NCBI GenBank assembly: GCA_020696885.1
Contig: JAJFMS010000166.1
Span: 1-7,074 of the forward strand
Direction: 5' to 3'
DNA from: Armatimonadota bacterium
GTDB taxonomy: Bacteria > Armatimonadota > SYMT01
Length of the DNA stretch: 7,074 nucleotides
This document shows positions 1-7,074 of the stretch, in pieces. The notes under the pieces were generated by a model. It was not told the DNA's origin. It made no database searches and was given only the letters and a program-made list of their open reading frames with translations. The stretch's first letter is position 1; every line of letters starts with the position of its first letter. The translations under genes were made by a program, and so were the position numbers.

Positions 1-2745
1 TCCGGCAAGACCGCCATCATGCACGAGGTGGTGCGCCGCATCCGGGAGGATAGCTGCCCCGCCTCGCTGCGGAAGCGCCAGGTGTGGTACACCACCGCCA
101 ACCAGCTCATCGCCGGGTGCAGCTATGTGGGGCAGTGGCAGAACAAGCTGCAGAACGTGGTCGACGAGGTGAAGCGCCGCCGCCACATCCTGCACGTGGA
201 AGACCTCACCGAGCTGCTGGACGCCGGGCGCAGCTCCAGCGGCGACGACAACATGGCCCAGTTCCTCCGCCCGCTGCTGGCGGACGGCACCGTCATCATC
301 GTGGGCGAGGTGACGCCTGAGCGGCTGCGCGTGGCCGAGACGCGAGATCCGGGGTTCATCAGCACGTTCCGGACGCTAGTGGTGGAGGAGACCTCGGACG
401 ACACCACGCTCAGCATCCTCACGGCGGTCTCCGCCGGGCTGGAGCAGCGGCTCAAGGTGCGCATCGAGCCGGGCGCGGCCCAGGTGGGCGCGGAGCTCAC
501 GCGCCGCTTCCAGCCGTACCGCGCGTTCCCGGGCAAGGCGGTGCAGTTCCTGGAGCGCGCCGCGGCAGACGCCGCCAGCACCGCCGGCGAGGGCGAGAAG
601 CGCCCGGTGATCACCCGCCAGCAGGCGGTGCGGGCGTTCGCACGGTACTCCGGGCTGCCGGAGTTCCTGCTTTCGGACCACCTGACGCTGGACACGGAGG
701 CGCTGCGCCGCCACTTCAGCGATCGCCTCATTGGACAGGCGGAGGCGGTGGAGACGGTCACGGACCTGGTGACCGTGGTGAAGGCCGGCCTCAACGACCC
801 GCACAAGCCGCTGGGCTGCTACTTCTTCGTCGGCCCGACCGGCGTGGGCAAGACCGAGATGGTCAAGGCGCTGGCGGAGTACCTCTTCGGGAGCGCTGAC
901 CGCGTGCTGCGGTTCGACATGAGCGAGTACTCGCTGCCGCACACCGTGGCGACGCTCATCGGCGGCACCCAGGCCGGGGCCGAAGGGGAGCTCACCAAGC
1001 GGATCCGCCTGCAGCCGTTCTCCGTGGTGCTGCTGGACGAGTTCGAGAAGGCCGACCCCGCCATCTACGACCTGATGCTGCAGGTGCTGGGCGAGGGCCG
1101 CCTCACCGACGCCGCGGGGCACACGGCGGACTTCCGCAGCGCCATCGTGATCATGACCTCCAACCTGGGCGCCACGGCCCGGGACCAGCGCCAGCCCGGC
1201 CTGCGCACCGCGGGGGACGAGGCGCCCTCCACGGCGCGGCACTACGTGGACCAGGTGGAGCGGTACTTCCGGCCGGAGTTCGTGAACCGGCTGGACCGTA
1301 TCGTGGCGTTCCGGCCGCTGACGGAAGAGGCGATGCGGCAGATCGCGGGGCGAGAGCTGGGCAAGCTGCTCCAGCGAGAAGGCATCCGGCGGCGCAACCT
1401 GCTGGTGGAGATCGACGACAGCATCATCGACATGCTGCTCTCCACCGGCTTCAGCCCGGTCTACGGTGCGCGCCCCCTGAAGCGGGAGATCGAGCGGCGG
1501 GTGATCGTGCCGCTCTCCCGGTACCTGGTGGCGCACCGGCTGGGGGAGTCGCAGTTGATCCAGGTGCGGGCCGAGGACGGCGAGGTGCGGCTGAGCTCCT
1601 CCTCCCTGGGCACGCCGAAGGAGACGGTACGCCGCTCCGGTGCGCTGGCCACGGGTGAAAGCGAAGGCGGCGCCGCTTCGCTCAACCCGGCTGCGCTCAT
1701 CGAGGCGCTGGCGGCGGTCCGCCTGCGCCTCTACCAGTGGGCCGACGGCGAGACGCTCCGCGAGATCAAGAACGAGTGGCACCGGCTGCTGGGCGAGACC
1801 CGGCGCAAGGGCTTCCCAACCCACGGCCCGGAGTCGCACCGCGTCTGGAGCCGGGTCTACCACCTGGAGCGGCTCTCCAAGCGGGTGGAACAGCTCCGGG
1901 ACCGGGCGGACTACCTGGAAGAGTTTGCGCAGCTCTCGCACCGGGAGCGGCTGCGGGACTACCATGGCGAGCTGGCGCGCAGCTACGAGGGGCTGGCTCG
2001 GGACGCGGATTACCTGGAGATCGAGCTGCTCTGCGCCCACCTCTCCGAGAACGGACAGGCGCTGGTGCGGCTGAGCGGCATCGGGCGGTCCGCCCAGCCC
2101 GCGGACGCCGAGCGGTGGCTGCTGAAGCTCGCGAAGACCTACCTGGCCTGGGCCAGGCGCAAGGGCTACACCACCGAGGTGCTCGTGCCGACCGCGAGCT
2201 ACTTCCGCTGGATCGAGGAGCGCGGCTTCAAGGTGAAGCAGTACCTCCCCACGTTCGACGCCGGCCCGCCGGCGCGGCCGGTCTGGGCGGAGCTGGGGCT
2301 GCGCGAGCCGAAGGCGATCGAGACGCGGCTGGCCGAGATGGACCCGAAGCAGGTGATCCTCGCGCTGAAAGGACCGAACGTGTACGGCTTCCTGAAAGGC
2401 GAGGCGGGCAGCCACAAGCTGGTGCTGCGGCCCGAGGACTCCGACGGCGCGGCGCCGTTCCAGACGGCGGTGGTGGCGGTGCAGTCGCTGGAGGAAGAGG
2501 AGAGCCCGGCAGCGTTCCTGGAGGCCGAGGCGGAGAAGGCCGCCGCCGAAGCCGCGGGCTCGCGGCCGAAGCCGGCGGTGGTGCCGGAGGTGGTGCGCAT
2601 CTACTCCGTGGACGGCGACCGCTTCGTGCGGGACACGCGCACCGGAGTCCGCACCAACCGCGTCCGCGAAGTCTTCGAAGGCGACCTGGACGAGCTGATC
2701 CTGGCCTACCTGAAGACCGCCGAAGCCGAGGACGCGTGGGAGTAA
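1..2745 (+). CDS. Two-domain Clp/Hsp100 AAA+ ATPase fused to a GGQ-less RF2-like module (5' end missing)
   Basis: The frame is open from base 1, which encodes S-G-K-T, the end of the first Walker A motif, so the gene starts upstream and the ATG at 19 is internal. D1 keeps a tyrosine pore loop (SYVGQW, about 121-138) but has Walker B E-D instead of D-E (199-204) and Ser-Thr where Clp D1 domains have the Arg-Arg finger pair (361-366). No ClpB middle coiled coil separates D1 from D2. D2 has Walker A GPTGVGKT (832-855), Walker B LLDEFEKA, sensor 1 TSNLG (1156-1170), Arg finger FRPEFVNRLD (1267-1296) and sensor 2 YGARPLKR (1462-1485), but its GYVG pore loop is missing and no clear ClpP-docking IGF/IGL tripeptide is seen. 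From about 1681 the protein resembles RF2: an N-terminal helical region, a PCRF-type core with YGFLKGEAGSHKLV (2383-2424), and an RF2-type C-terminus (RTGV...GDLDELI, 2638-2700). The GGQ domain is replaced by an acidic/alanine-rich linker (about 2491-2589). The ATPase assignment is firm; the role (ribosome-directed unfoldase) is inference. Confidence 0.85.
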   Translation, partial: SGKTAIMHEVVRRIREDSCPASLRKRQVWYTTANQLIAGCSYVGQWQNKLQNVVDEVKRRRHILHVEDLTELLDAGRSSSGDDNMAQFLRPLLADGTVIIVGEVTPERLRVAETRDPGFISTFRTLVVEETSDDTTLSILTAVSAGLEQRLKVRIEPGAAQVGAELTRRFQPYRAFPGKAVQFLERAAADAASTAGEGEKRPVITRQQAVRAFARYSGLPEFLLSDHLTLDTEALRRHFSDRLIGQAEAVETVTDLVTVVKAGLNDPHKPLGCYFFVGPTGVGKTEMVKALAEYLFGSADRVLRFDMSEYSLPHTVATLIGGTQAGAEGELTKRIRLQPFSVVLLDEFEKADPAIYDLMLQVLGEGRLTDAAGHTADFRSAIVIMTSNLGATARDQRQPGLRTAGDEAPSTARHYVDQVERYFRPEFVNRLDRIVAFRPLTEEAMRQIAGRELGKLLQREGIRRRNLLVEIDDSIIDMLLSTGFSPVYGARPLKREIERRVIVPLSRYLVAHRLGESQLIQVRAEDGEVRLSSSSLGTPKETVRRSGALATGESEGGAASLNPAALIEALAAVRLRLYQWADGETLREIKNEWHRLLGETRRKGFPTHGPESHRVWSRVYHLERLSKRVEQLRDRADYLEEFAQLSHRERLRDYHGELARSYEGLARDADYLEIELLCAHLSENGQALVRLSGIGRSAQPADAERWLLKLAKTYLAWARRKGYTTEVLVPTASYFRWIEERGFKVKQYLPTFDAGPPARPVWAELGLREPKAIETRLAEMDPKQVILALKGPNVYGFLKGEAGSHKLVLRPEDSDGAAPFQTAVVAVQSLEEEESPAAFLEAEAEKAAAEAAGSRPKPAVVPEVVRIYSVDGDRFVRDTRTGVRTNRVREVFEGDLDELILAYLKTAEAEDAWE

Positions 2746-3470: not shown

Positions 3471-3998
3471 ATGACCCAGACGCTAACCTCCCCCACAGTG
3501 AGCTCGCTCGTCCGCCGCGCGCGGGTGACGGATGCCGCGGAGATCCAGCGTCTGATCACCATGTTCGCGGACCGGGATGAGATGCTCCACCGGCCGCTGG
3601 GCGAGATCTACGAAAACATCCGGGACTTCTACGTAGCGGAAGACCCGGACGGCCGCGTGGTCGCCTGCGGCGGGCTGCACGTCTGCTGGAGCCACCTGGC
3701 CGAGGTGAAAAGTCTGGCGGTGGACGAAGGTCAGCAGGGCCGCGGCTACGGCAAGCGGATTGTGCAGGCCTGCATCACGGAGGCGCGCGAGCTGGGGCTC
3801 AAAACCGTCTTCGCGCTCACCTACAAGCCGGAGTTCTTCAGCCGCATCGGGTTCCGCATCGTCGACAAGGCCACGCTGCCCCACAAGGTGTGGAACGAGT
3901 GCATCCGCTGCCCGAAGTTCCCTGCCTGCGGCGAGATCGCCGTGGTCTACGACCTCGCCCGCACCTCCACCCCGCTGAACCTGCCGGTCGTGGGGTAG
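3471..3998 (+). CDS. GNAT acetyltransferase, stand-alone N-acetylglutamate synthase-like
   Basis: This 175-residue cytoplasmic protein is a single GNAT domain. It begins with the typical strand RRARVTDAAEIQ and carries the acetyl-CoA pyrophosphate-binding motif QQGRGYGK at residues 88-95, followed by the late motif FFSRIGF. The overall pattern (GGLHV, S.LAEVKSLAVD, FALTYKPEFF) matches the short stand-alone N-acetylglutamate synthases of the Rv2747 type, which acetylate glutamate with acetyl-CoA as the first step of arginine synthesis. A cysteine cluster, Cys144-x2-Cys147-x5-Cys153, lies near the C-terminus and could bind metal. The ATG at 3471 was chosen because it follows the promoter; a GTG at 3498 is in frame and also possible, and neither has a clear Shine-Dalgarno sequence. 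No arginine gene is visible nearby, so the substrate is inferred from family resemblance only. Confidence 0.8.
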   Translation: MTQTLTSPTVSSLVRRARVTDAAEIQRLITMFADRDEMLHRPLGEIYENIRDFYVAEDPDGRVVACGGLHVCWSHLAEVKSLAVDEGQQGRGYGKRIVQACITEARELGLKTVFALTYKPEFFSRIGFRIVDKATLPHKVWNECIRCPKFPACGEIAVVYDLARTSTPLNLPVVG

Positions 3999-4005
3999 CC
4001 CTCCG

Positions 4006-4485
4006 ATGCTCATCCGCCCCTACCGCCCAGAAGACCTTCCGCGCGTCCGCGCCATCACCGTGGACAGCTTCGAGGGCGTCTCCATCGACCGGAACATCGA
4101 ACGGGAGTTCGGGGAGGTCGCCGGGAAGGACTGGCGGGAGCGCAAAGCCCGGGACGTCTCCACGGACTGCGAGGTGCAGCCGGAAGGGGTATTCGTGGCG
4201 GAAGAAGGGGGCGAGGTGCTCGGCTACGTCACCACCCGCCTGGACCGCTTCACCGGCATCGGCCGCATCCCGAACCTGGCGGTGGACGAGCGCGCCCGCG
4301 GACAGGGCCTCGGCACGCAGCTCATCGACCACGCCATCGCCTACATGCGCCAGCAGGGCATGGCGATGGCCAAGATCGAAACCCTCGTCCAGAACGAGCG
4401 CGGCCAGGCGCTCTACCCCCGCTTCGGCTTCCGCGAGGTGGCTCGCCAGATCCACTACGTGATGCCGCTCTCGGACCACGAGTAG
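4006..4485 (+). CDS. GNAT family N-acetyltransferase, substrate unknown
   Basis: This 159-residue GNAT-domain protein starts MLIRPYRPEDLPRVRAI, a usual GNAT first strand and helix. The acetyl-CoA-binding motif RARGQGLG is at residues 96-103, preceded by IPNLAVDE (the strand that binds the acetyl-CoA pantetheine arm). The late motif NERGQALYPRFGF is the usual C-terminal helix and strand. It resembles the broad RimI-like group that acetylates protein N-termini or small amines; nothing in the sequence identifies the substrate. It begins 7 nt after the stop of the preceding GNAT gene, so the two are probably co-transcribed. A clear Shine-Dalgarno sequence is missing, which suggests translational coupling. 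A residue block around 40-60 (EREFGEVAGKDWRERKARDV) is longer than in minimal GNATs. Confidence 0.85.
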   Translation: MLIRPYRPEDLPRVRAITVDSFEGVSIDRNIEREFGEVAGKDWRERKARDVSTDCEVQPEGVFVAEEGGEVLGYVTTRLDRFTGIGRIPNLAVDERARGQGLGTQLIDHAIAYMRQQGMAMAKIETLVQNERGQALYPRFGFREVARQIHYVMPLSDHE

Positions 4486-4576: not shown

Positions 4577-4592
4577 TAGAACATATGTTCTA
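4577..4592. promoter_or_regulatory. LexA (SOS) box-like operator of the helicase gene
   Basis: A perfect 16-bp palindrome tagaacatatgttcta contains the core GAAC-ATAT-GTTC, which fits the GAAC-N4-GTTC LexA/DinR box of Gram-positive-type SOS systems. Against CGAACRNRYGTTYC it differs only at the two outermost bases. It overlaps the first bases of the -10 hexamer, so a bound repressor would block RNA polymerase. It sits in a short AT-rich island in GC-rich DNA. The repressor is not in the window, so its identity is inferred. Confidence 0.65.
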
Positions 4593-4596
4593 TAAT
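4591..4596 (+). promoter_or_regulatory. Promoter -10 element of the helicase gene
   Basis: A perfect TATAAT hexamer lies 27 nt before the chosen start codon. No convincing -35 hexamer is seen at 16-18 nt spacing (cacaaa at 17 nt). The hexamer shares two bases with the palindromic operator. A transcript starting near 4603 would have a leader of about 20 nt. Confidence 0.65.
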
Positions 4597-4611
4597 ATAC
4601 CAGTCGGGCTT

Positions 4612-4618
4612 GAGGAGA
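4612..4618 (+). promoter_or_regulatory. Ribosome binding site of the helicase gene
   Basis: The sequence gaggaga lies 5 nt before the ATG at 4624. It decides the start: the upstream in-frame ATG at 4585 lies inside the operator, before the -10 hexamer, and cannot be in the mRNA. Confidence 0.8.
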
Positions 4619-4623
4619 CTGGA

Positions 4624-5958
4624 ATGGATTGGCAAAGAAACACGGACACGGAAGAAGCGGAGCTGGAGAGCGGTTCGGCGTTGGATCTACTGATGGAGGG
4701 CGCCGAGGACGCCCTGGATGATGAAGCTGAGGCGGCACCGCAGGTAGCGCCGCCGACGGGCGCGCTGCAGGCCCGCGCGACGAGCAAGGGCTTTGGCCCG
4801 CTGGAGCCGGCGCCGCGGCTGGCGCTGACCCCTCGGCCCTATCAGGAGGACGCGCTGACCGCTTGGACGGAGAACGGCGGCCGCGGCGTGGTGGTGCTGC
4901 CGACCGGGGCCGGAAAGACGATCCTGGCGCTGATGGCGGTGGCCGCGGCCGGTGTGCGGCCGTTGGTGGTGGTACCGACCCTGGAGTTGCTGAAGCAGTG
5001 GTCCGAGGGGTTAAGCAAACACCTGGGCCTACCGGTGGAAGCGGTGGGCCAGGTGGGCGGCGGGAAACGGTGCCTGGGTCCGGCTACCGTGATCACCTAC
5101 GACTCCGCATGGCGCCGGCCGCAGGACCTCAAGCCGTTTGGCCTGCTCATCTTTGACGAGGCGCACCACCTCCCCTCCGGAGCCTACCGGCGCATCGCCG
5201 CGAGCTCTCCGGCACCGTTTCGCCTGGGGCTCACCGCCACGCCGGAGCGCGCGGACTTCCGGCACGAGGACCTGGACCGTCTCATCGGCCCGGTGGTGTT
5301 CCGCCGCAGCCCCGCGGAGCTCTCCCGCAGCCGGCACATCGCGCGGTTCCGCCAGGAGCGGCTCTTCGTGGACCTGACGGACGAAGAGGAGTACCAGTAC
5401 CACCAGTGCATGTCCCGTTTCCGGTGGTACATGGCGCAGAACCGGATCTGGGGGCAGGGCTTCCAGCAGCTCATCTTCCGCGCCGCCAGCGATCCCAACG
5501 CCCGCGAGGCGCTGCGGTGTCACCAGCAGGCACGCCTGGTGGCGATGAACGCCTCCCGTAAGACCGACCGCGTCCTGGAGCTGCTGCGGCGGCACCACGA
5601 AGACCGGGTCCTGGTGTTCTGTGAGTACACGTCCGTGGTGGACAGCCTCAGCCGCAGCCTGGTGCTGCCGTCGGTCACCTACCGTACCCCCACGGCGGAG
5701 CGGCGCCTCACCCTGCAGCGGTTCCGCGCCGGCGGCTACACCAAGCTGGTCACCGGCCGCGTGCTCAACGAAGGCGTAGACGTGCCGGATGCGAACGTCG
5801 CTATCGTCGTCAGCGGCAGCGCCACCCCCCGCGAGCAGATCCAGCGCCTGGGCCGCGTCCTCCGTCCCAAAGAGGAAGAAGCCGTCCTCTACGAGATCGT
5901 CGCCCGAGGCACCGTAGAAGAACGGGCCGCCCGCTCCCGCCGGGTTAAAGACTCGTAG
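4624..5958 (+). CDS. XPB/Rad25-like superfamily 2 DNA helicase
   Basis: This 444-residue ATP-dependent DNA helicase/translocase of the XPB group has a Q-like motif LTPRPYQEDALTAW, Walker A LPTGAGKT (residues 92-99), DEAH box (178-181), motif III LTATP (203-207), motif V (GRVLNEGVDVPDANV) and motif VI QRLGRVLRP (407-415). A helical insertion between the two RecA domains (about residues 255-305) corresponds to the XPB thumb. The XPB RED motif is altered: the stretch after motif III reads PERADF instead of containing R-E-D. The first ~70 residues are acidic and low-complexity, and the N-terminal damage-recognition domain of archaeal XPB is not evident. In archaea XPB works with the nuclease Bax1 to open DNA and cut around lesions; a Bax1-like gene follows here after 270 nt. 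The LexA-like operator suggests DNA-damage induction. Confidence 0.9.
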   Translation: MDWQRNTDTEEAELESGSALDLLMEGAEDALDDEAEAAPQVAPPTGALQARATSKGFGPLEPAPRLALTPRPYQEDALTAWTENGGRGVVVLPTGAGKTILALMAVAAAGVRPLVVVPTLELLKQWSEGLSKHLGLPVEAVGQVGGGKRCLGPATVITYDSAWRRPQDLKPFGLLIFDEAHHLPSGAYRRIAASSPAPFRLGLTATPERADFRHEDLDRLIGPVVFRRSPAELSRSRHIARFRQERLFVDLTDEEEYQYHQCMSRFRWYMAQNRIWGQGFQQLIFRAASDPNAREALRCHQQARLVAMNASRKTDRVLELLRRHHEDRVLVFCEYTSVVDSLSRSLVLPSVTYRTPTAERRLTLQRFRAGGYTKLVTGRVLNEGVDVPDANVAIVVSGSATPREQIQRLGRVLRPKEEEAVLYEIVARGTVEERAARSRRVKDS

Positions 5959-6081: not shown

Positions 6082-6161
6082 CTGAACACCTGAACACCTG
6101 AACACCTGAACACCTGAACACCTGAACACCTGAACACCTGAACACCTGAACACCTGAACAC
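6082..6161. repeat. Tandem array of ten identical 8-bp units (ctgaacac)
   Basis: Ten perfect, uninterrupted copies of ctgaacac fill 80 bp between the helicase gene and the Bax1-like gene. There are no spacers, so this is a simple-sequence (VNTR-like) tract and not a CRISPR array. Perfect identity suggests recent expansion by slipped-strand replication, so copy number is likely to differ between strains. It lies outside the coding sequences; a change would alter the spacing and RNA folding ahead of the downstream gene, not a reading frame. Confidence 0.97.
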
Positions 6162-6193
6162 CGCACCGCAATCCCGCCCCTCCACCGCCCCGC

Positions 6194-6228: not shown

Positions 6229-7074
6229 ATGAGTTTCAGACTGGGTGACTTGAAAAAATCGGTCCGGAAGGGCCGGGAGGGCTACCAGGTGTCGCCGGCG
6301 CGGTTGGAGAGCCGACAGCACCGGTTCCAGGTGGAGTTCGTGCTGCAGCAATTCGAGCAGCACCTGGGCCGGCCGCGCCGGGAGCTGGACCCGGACGTGC
6401 TGCTGGACTTCGTGGGGGACTCGCGGCTGGGCCGGGGGCTGCTGGCCACGCTCGCGCAGTGGTATCGGATGCGCGCGCGCACCTTTCCGGAGCTGCTGGA
6501 TGCCCGCAAAGACGAAGGCCGCCGGGTGGCGCGGCTGCTGGAGCACGGGATCAGCGGCCCCGTGGAGCTGCGCGCGTGGCTCTATCGAGCTGCGAACCAG
6601 GAGAGCGCGGGCTATGTGGATCCGCCCACGGATGAGCCGTACTGGCGGGCACGCACGCGTACCCTCGGGCTGCGGCGCGAGGCGTTGGAGGCGCTGTCAC
6701 TGCTGGACCGGCCGGAGGAGGCGGTGCTGGTGCGCACCGGCCCGCGTCCGTCCGCCGCGGACGTGATCGCCGCTTACAACGCGCGGGCACACACCACGCT
6801 GCTGCGCTCAGCTGCGGAAGTGACACTCACGTGTCGCGGCTCACTGGCCGTGCTCCAACGGGCGGCCGATCTCTGGGCGGGCACACTGGGTGTCGAATGG
6901 GAAGTCGATAGTGCGGTGCTGCGGCTGCGTGGGCGGGCAGATGCGCTCGGCTGCTGGACCCGTCACGGGCGTCGCCTGGAGCGGGCGGTGCTGGAACTGC
7001 TCGCCATCCCGGAGCTGGGGGTCCGCGAGGTGACCGGCCGGCTCCGGGTGGGCGAGCGCGACTGCCGCTTCACC
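6229..7074 (+). CDS. Bax1-like DUF790 nuclease, partner of XPB (3' end missing)
   Basis: An ATG with a Shine-Dalgarno sequence opens a frame of 282 codons that has no stop before the window ends. The start (MSFRLGDLKKSVRKG) and the block SAADVIAAYNARAHTTLLRS (around residues 180-199) are typical of the DUF790/Bax1 family, where an invariant Tyr-Asn is followed by a helix ending in Leu-Leu. Bax1 binds archaeal XPB and acts as a structure-specific endonuclease at the unwound fork. Family members are about 400 residues or more, and the nuclease core is expected after the part visible here, so the catalytic residues cannot be checked. It lies downstream of the XPB-like helicase on the same strand but is separated from it by the octamer repeat region and preceded by its own LexA-like site, so it may be read both from the helicase promoter and separately. 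Confidence 0.85.
   Translation, partial: MSFRLGDLKKSVRKGREGYQVSPARLESRQHRFQVEFVLQQFEQHLGRPRRELDPDVLLDFVGDSRLGRGLLATLAQWYRMRARTFPELLDARKDEGRRVARLLEHGISGPVELRAWLYRAANQESAGYVDPPTDEPYWRARTRTLGLRREALEALSLLDRPEEAVLVRTGPRPSAADVIAAYNARAHTTLLRSAAEVTLTCRGSLAVLQRAADLWAGTLGVEWEVDSAVLRLRGRADALGCWTRHGRRLERAVLELLAIPELGVREVTGRLRVGERDCRFT

Follow-up and report, generated by a model that had tools for sequence, protein, structure and literature searches.

The fusion gene and its AAA+ part

The DNA analysed here (hereafter the window) comprises positions 1 to 7,074 of contig JAJFMS010000166.1 from an Armatimonadota bacterium (assembly GCA_020696885.1), and it begins within a gene that encodes a Clp/Hsp100-type AAA+ protein carrying a tail related to release factor 2 (RF2). 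The reading frame is open on the plus strand from the first base of the window to a stop at position 2745 (914 codons). Because relatives such as the closest one (P0001; 1162 amino acids, 248 more than the 914 of the window protein) extend further N-terminally, the true start of the gene lies upstream of the window. Pfam matches follow in the order D1 lid, AAA_2 (residues 270–433), D2 small domain (440–521) and, in the last third, PCRF. This order, together with a match of the tail to prfB (NCBIfam, E-value 4.3e-23), agrees with the initial annotation, which had described a Clp/Hsp100 protein with an RF2-like tail. It is almost certain that the window protein is of the Clp AAA+ type and carries an RF2 tail that has been disarmed; the fusion joins a two-ring AAA+ protein of the Clp family to a C-terminal RF2 that was probably captured whole. 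An assembly artefact or chance similarity was ruled out by the continuous frame, by more than 30 relatives of the same architecture, and by negative controls with shuffled sequences and ordinary Clp proteins. A tRNA-Val gene adjoins the fusion gene on its 3′ side on the opposite strand, and there is therefore no obvious downstream partner.

Table 1. Features of the fusion gene in the window.
Feature	Position	Strand	Basis
AAA+/RF2-like fusion gene, 5′ truncated at window edge	1..2745	+	open frame; 30-row family alignment
D1 AAA+ module and lid (far boundary approximate)	1..690	+	alignment with 10 ordinary Clp proteins; AAA_lid_9 at residues 132-197
D1 Walker A end SGKT	window edge	+	
D1 pore loop YVG	124-132	+	
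D1 degenerate Walker B (ED for DE)	199-204	+	
D2 AAA+ domain	808..1299	+	Pfam AAA_2 E 2.7e-41; motif table
D2 Walker A GPTGVGKT	832-855	+	
D2 Walker B LLDEFEKA	1030-1053	+	
D2 ClpP-type loop position PGL	1195-1203	+	
D2 small (C-terminal) domain	1318..1563	+	Pfam ClpB_D2-small E 2.8e-14
RF2 domain-1-like helical region	1678..2031	+	model helices 4-118; structural match to RF2
RF2 domain-2-like (PCRF) core with GPNVYGFLKGEAGSH at 2371-2415	2056..2487	+	PCRF E 9.6e-11; hhalign; column table
P-E-D where RF2 has SPF	2431-2439	+	column table; codons as read
Short acidic helix and linker replacing RF2 domain 3 (GGQ domain)	2488..2589	+	alignment; model helix 277-292
RF2-type C-terminal segment (R-x-Y...RDTRTGV...GDLDELI)	2590..2724	+	PDB sequence match, hhalign, column table

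Similar to ClpA/ClpC-type Hsp100 proteins, the fusions have two AAA+ modules with Walker A motifs (that of D1 is cut by the window edge and complete in relatives), a D2 with intact Walker A, Walker B and FRPEF–NRLD box, a D2 small domain and, in many members, a GL/GF loop. Different from these proteins, they carry the RF2-like tail, and no Clp_N domain is among the Pfam matches listed; the family also groups apart from 10 ordinary Clp proteins. In D1 the Walker A motif is kept, as is the aromatic pore loop in most of 33 family rows, including the YVG of the window, while the DE of Walker B occurs in none of these rows (0/33); the window D2 has DEFEKA. The D2 pore loop GYVG is absent from all 33 rows, with other aromatic residues in a few relatives. 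The degenerate D1 Walker B and the missing D2 GYVG make it uncertain that the protein is a canonical unfoldase. A loop of the [LIV]G[FL] type binds ClpP, as in ClpA and ClpX. At this position 65 of 66 proteins have xG[FLWIV] and 26 of 66 the strict [LIV]G[FL], counts without a control set of unfoldases independent of ClpP.

Descent of the tail from RF2

Searched alone, the tail matched PCRF (Pfam, E 9.6e-11) as well as prfB, with weaker matches to prfA. All NCBIfam scores are far under the equivalog cut-offs, and the tail is therefore a relative of RF2 rather than an RF2. RF2 chains came first when the single window tail was compared with PDB sequences (E 4.9e-11), and profile–profile comparison (hhalign) of 10 tails with 7 genuine RF2 gave a probability of 99.9% (E 2.2e-33, 270 columns). 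The predicted structure likewise resembles RF2 domains 1, 2 and 4, with predicted local distance difference test block means of 88–96 in the domain-1-like region (86 at its very start). The RF2 domain order proposed initially (helical region, PCRF core and RF2-type end) was recovered by profile, alignment and model.

A hidden Markov model (HMM) of 13 genuine RF2 matched 47 of 67 family proteins, none of 10 ordinary Clp proteins and none of 67 tail-shuffled copies, after 16 named duplicates and identical sequences had been dropped. The 20 family proteins without a match at E 1e-3 speak against a simple story; they comprise 15 tailed proteins (from Planctomycetota, Bacteroidota, L079 and G884), four tail-less members of the gene triads described below, and L099, which is cut by a contig end (E 0.003). 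By profile, the triad-A/Bacteroidota tails matched window-type tails (98.1%, E 1.2e-13) and RF2 (96.3%, E 2e-9), and the triad-B tails are only probable relatives (66.9% and 92.4% versus fusion tails, 2.6% versus RF2); all 18 column-shuffled controls of this comparison remained at or below 0.3%. An origin of the tail from RF1 was rejected on a tree of 49 of 61 tails with 21 release factors (13 RF2 and 8 RF1), a quick tree without bootstrap in which the Shimodaira–Hasegawa-like approximate likelihood ratio support of the fusion group is only 75 and the placement of triad/Bacteroidota-type tails is unsafe (long branches). The count of 61 tails leaves out named duplicates and tail-less genes, and a spurious 39-residue frame among the 22 release factors of the GGQ/SPF count was removed before the tree.

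The tails examined have lost the stop-codon-reading elements and an intact GGQ, and the lineage of the window has lost the catalytic domain entirely. No tail has SPF (0/61) or an intact GGQ at the equivalent place (0/61), domain 3 being absent in the window. Residues are present at the GGQ site in 16 tails, four of which, the Herpetosiphon-type P0034, P0035, P0037 and P0038, read VGQ or TGQ; the claimed loss of GGQ holds for the intact motif, with Gly-Gln kept in these four. Of the three outcomes named beforehand as contradicting the initial annotation (no significant RF1/RF2 profile match, a predicted fold unlike RF domains 2/4, GGQ in the equivalent segment of a homologue), none was observed. 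In the window, an acidic stretch in place of the GGQ domain and the P-E-D codons in place of SPF were found as the initial annotation had them. Its reading of a conserved His as Phe depends on the alignment; RF2 R-H/Q-T to F-Q-T is perhaps the better description (in an alignment that leaves out 16 rows without the boundary motif and listed duplicates, and whose boundary rule differs from that of the 61-tail count). Across 34 rows, of the positions of SPF and the R-H-T after it, F189 is kept in none, T197 in two and R195 in 13. Genuine RF2 of Planctomycetota genomes (L081 and L087) have Gln for this His (KRQT, not RHT).

In summary of its likeness to RF2, the tail shares the fold of domains 1, 2 and 4, the domain order, scaffold residues and phylogenetic placement. 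It differs in lacking intact GGQ and SPF, in the changed GAGG loop (absent from the window core) and in its fusion to an AAA+ protein, and the window type additionally lacks domain 3 and carries a domain 2 insert of about 44 residues (73 versus 29 in RF2).

Family, gene context and conservation

A protein search from the tail retrieved 32 relatives, 29 of which were used in the 30-row alignment (fragments P0007, P0013 and P0019 were left out). Some of their source names are Clp or release-factor proteins, and two are taxon names, Candidatus Eremiobacteraeota and Anaerolineae. A second protein search added the Herpetosiphon-type branch, in which two of nine matches are named Herpetosiphonaceae. 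With more than 30 relatives, the architecture is found in several bacterial phyla, and the check for it in other genomes proposed in the initial annotation was positive. At E 1e-100, full-length P0018 matched 13 of 400 genomes from the G006 phylum (locus L020 is from a Chloroflexi bacterium); 12 of the 13 gave an RF2-HMM match, the other being the truncated L099. At E 1e-95 the window protein matched 34/199 genomes from the phylum of a Planctomycetales genome, 2/198 from that of Ulvibacterium marinum, 1/146 from that of Obscuribacter and 4/81 in a draw repeating the phylum of G006, and 0/43 from the phylum of G007, a search without a positive control. Because these matches rest mainly on the AAA+ part, the genome counts do not give the number of RF2 tails. 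A search of genome contigs with the full-length alignment gave AAA-only patterns, most of at least 80 loci looking like ordinary Clp proteins, and no relative of the fusion was found in the viral contigs searched.

At the N-terminus of P0018 a UPF0150 (HicB-type) domain matches above the Pfam cut-off, and UPF0150 is listed for 5 of the 32 relatives. The fusion of L138 (9500-13030) has N-terminal repeats that by eye resemble HEAT-type repeats instead of the HicB-like domain. Replacement of the normal release factors by the fusion was rejected, 15 of 15 genomes each having two or more PF00472 matches above the cut-off, as was replacement of trans-translation, SmpB being present in 17 of 17.

Among six Herpetosiphon-type contigs (L113–L118), four (L113, L115, L117 and L118) have the fusion directly 3′ of a phosphoribosyltransferase gene read as PyrR, with overlapping ends. 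Downstream follows an aspartate/ornithine carbamoyltransferase (pyrB-like) gene in L115, L117 and L118 and a dihydroorotase-like gene in L113; the pyr neighbours rest on Pfam for L113 and L115. Since L115, L117 and L118 are close relatives, the arrangement amounts to about two independent cases, and in L114 and L116 the fusion is not so placed. Tandem triads of related AAA+ genes occur in Planctomycetota and in G884 (phylum of Obscuribacter), with a third, short member without a tail, which suggests a hetero-ring. Such triads lie at L139, L140, L142, L003 and L180, the tail-less third gene encoding about 746–779 amino acids. Where the fusions matched PADLOC models, the strongest stretches lay in the D2 AAA domain, and these matches are read as cross-matches; the lists of neighbouring genes, mostly read by eye, showed no recognisable defence cluster.

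Purifying selection was estimated as dN/dS (the ratio of nonsynonymous to synonymous substitution rates, omega) for 5 of 21 possible pairs of Herpetosiphon-type genes. In four close pairs, which share members, omega is 0.018–0.022 for D1–D2, 0.035–0.044 for RF domains 1 and 2, 0.049–0.061 for the C-terminus and 0.06–0.12 for the domain 3 remnant; in the fifth, distant pair it is 0.10–0.18 where computable, synonymous sites being saturated. Within-clade identity over RF2 columns is 0.27 in RF2 versus 0.61, 0.69 and 0.56 in three fusion clades for domain 1, 0.57 versus 0.52, 0.56 and 0.51 for domain 2, and 0.62 versus 0.66, 0.60 and 0.66 for the C-terminal part. Because the clades differ in depth, only the ratio within a clade is meaningful: domain 1 is more conserved than domain 2 in the three fusion clades, the reverse of RF2, and the C-terminal part lies above domain 1 in two of them (0.66 versus 0.61 and 0.56). 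Counting identity over all columns gives the same trend. Thirty tails are alignable, with invariant residues.

Possible roles of the fusion and other genes of the window

We give an even chance to ribosome docking as the job of the fusion, considering the descent of the tail, its retained fold, the selection on it and the ArfA precedent of codon-independent RF2 binding. The wider proposal falls only slightly short of that, namely that a Clp ring with a captured, disarmed RF2 as codon-blind docking arm may form an undescribed ribosome-surveillance machine of several phyla that runs parallel to the tmRNA–SmpB system. The RF2 part would be a built-in adaptor that docks the AAA+ ring at the factor-binding side of the ribosome, where domain 1 would be braced against the L11 stalk base and the body formed by domains 2 and 4 would occupy the A site or its vicinity, in the window type without peptidyl-tRNA hydrolysis. 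After docking, ATP turnover in D2 might pull on, remove or unfold something held there, such as a factor that is stuck, a protein of the ribosome or, on a broken ribosome, the nascent chain. In the many members with a GL/GF loop, ClpP would be able to take over the substrate; substrate and ClpP partner alike are guesswork.

In BrfA–RF2 rescue, the RF2 body is reportedly used without SPF reading. PMC5378476 describes the same use in ArfA–RF2 rescue, as well as the contact of RF2 domain 1 with the L11 stalk. Both systems resemble the fusion in an RF2 body that serves without SPF reading, but they keep GGQ and release the peptide, whereas the window-type fusion lacks the GGQ domain. PrfH (RFH), ArfB and C12orf65, as treated in PMC6514570 and PMC1586002, are also members of the release-factor superfamily with altered domain sets and, unlike the fusion, act as peptidyl hydrolases. 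Dom34/Pelota, which according to PMC6514570 is related to release factors, lacks the catalytic Gln and is used in rescue, works with a partner NTPase in archaea and eukaryotes; as a non-catalytic release-factor relative in rescue it is comparable by analogy only, its fold being unrelated and its partner a separate enzyme. The string Clp is absent from the main text of the release-factor survey PMC6514570 and from that of PMC1586002. Among the titles and abstract beginnings listed in searches of open-access papers, none told of a release-factor body built into a bacterial AAA+ protein, a description elsewhere being possible.

Several observations weigh against docking or against the motor action that would follow it. 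Classical unfolding is uncertain because D1 Walker B without DE and D2 without GYVG extend through the 33 family rows, and the PGL loop of the window does not fit the ClpP consensus in its strict form. Since four Herpetosiphon-type relatives keep Gly-Gln, hydrolysis can be called lost with certainty only in members without domain 3. Raised conservation of domain 1, the L11-stalk side, with flat or slightly lower conservation of domain 2, complicates docking at the decoding centre, and four Planctomycetota tails (domain 1 0.29, domain 2 0.32, C-terminal part 0.42) show no rise of domain 1 over RF2. Among the neighbours of the fusions, mostly read by eye, none was recognised as a gene of translation or rescue, and the Herpetosiphon-type fusion is placed by pyr genes. 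Residues conserved across clades are largely structural scaffold, which a purely structural role would equally explain.

Such a role, in which the tail is a structural or regulatory part of the ring away from the ribosome (an oligomer contact, a lid over the D2 exit or a means of hetero-ring pairing), is rather unlikely, even though fold columns are kept where ribosome-functional columns changed, domain 1, the helical part beside D2, exceeds its RF2 counterpart in conservation in three clades, and the triads with their tail-less third member look as in a hetero-ring. It leaves unexplained why domains 1, 2 and the C-terminal part remain RF2-like, why purifying selection is strong in the genes tested, and why a whole RF2 was captured. 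Somewhat less probable still is that the tail mimics RF2 for its partners, as a decoy or platform for RF3, an ArfA/BrfA-like factor, a toxin or a phage factor, with the ring disposing of the catch. The retained fold with codon reading and intact GGQ lost, the HicB-type domain of P0018 and other relatives and the patchy distribution would suit this explanation, but the PADLOC matches look like D2 AAA cross-matches, the Herpetosiphon-type gene adjoins pyr genes and the neighbour lists, mostly read by eye, point to no defence cluster. We regard as very improbable a dominant-negative release factor, with the tail slowing termination by competing with RF2 for stop codons or stalled A sites and the ring merely controlling its availability; an RF2-like fold devoid of intact GGQ would fit, but a tail that has also lost the stop-codon-reading elements would compete poorly at stop codons. 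That the tail is a decaying, useless passenger is scarcely credible, since in Herpetosiphon-type genes the tail has an omega of about 0.04 and 30 tails align with invariant residues, despite the 15 tailed proteins without an RF2-HMM match.

If the tail docks on ribosomes, the fusion would represent a motor-driven route of ribosome quality control distinct from both trans-translation and GGQ-based rescue, and a natural pseudoenzyme for finding out which surfaces of RF2 bind ribosomes when no codon is read. A fossil catalytic domain is kept in Herpetosiphon-type genes, in four of them even with Gly-Gln, and the change from an enzyme into a docking module is therefore traceable. The matches named Herpetosiphonaceae and Ulvibacterium marinum are candidate organisms for such work.

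Elsewhere in the window, Pfam identified a neighbouring pair of GNAT acetyltransferase genes (3471-3998 and 4006-4485). An XPB-like helicase gene follows at 4585-5958 (NCBIfam XPB, E 2.4e-66, below the curated cut-off), and after it, at 6229-7074, a gene for a DUF790 protein (Pfam, E 2.3e-8); DUF790 is a Bax1-type nuclease partner of XPB, and the two are perhaps a bacterial XPB–Bax1 repair pair. Between them, at 6082-6162, the 8-base unit CTGAACAC is repeated 10 times, all copies being perfect.
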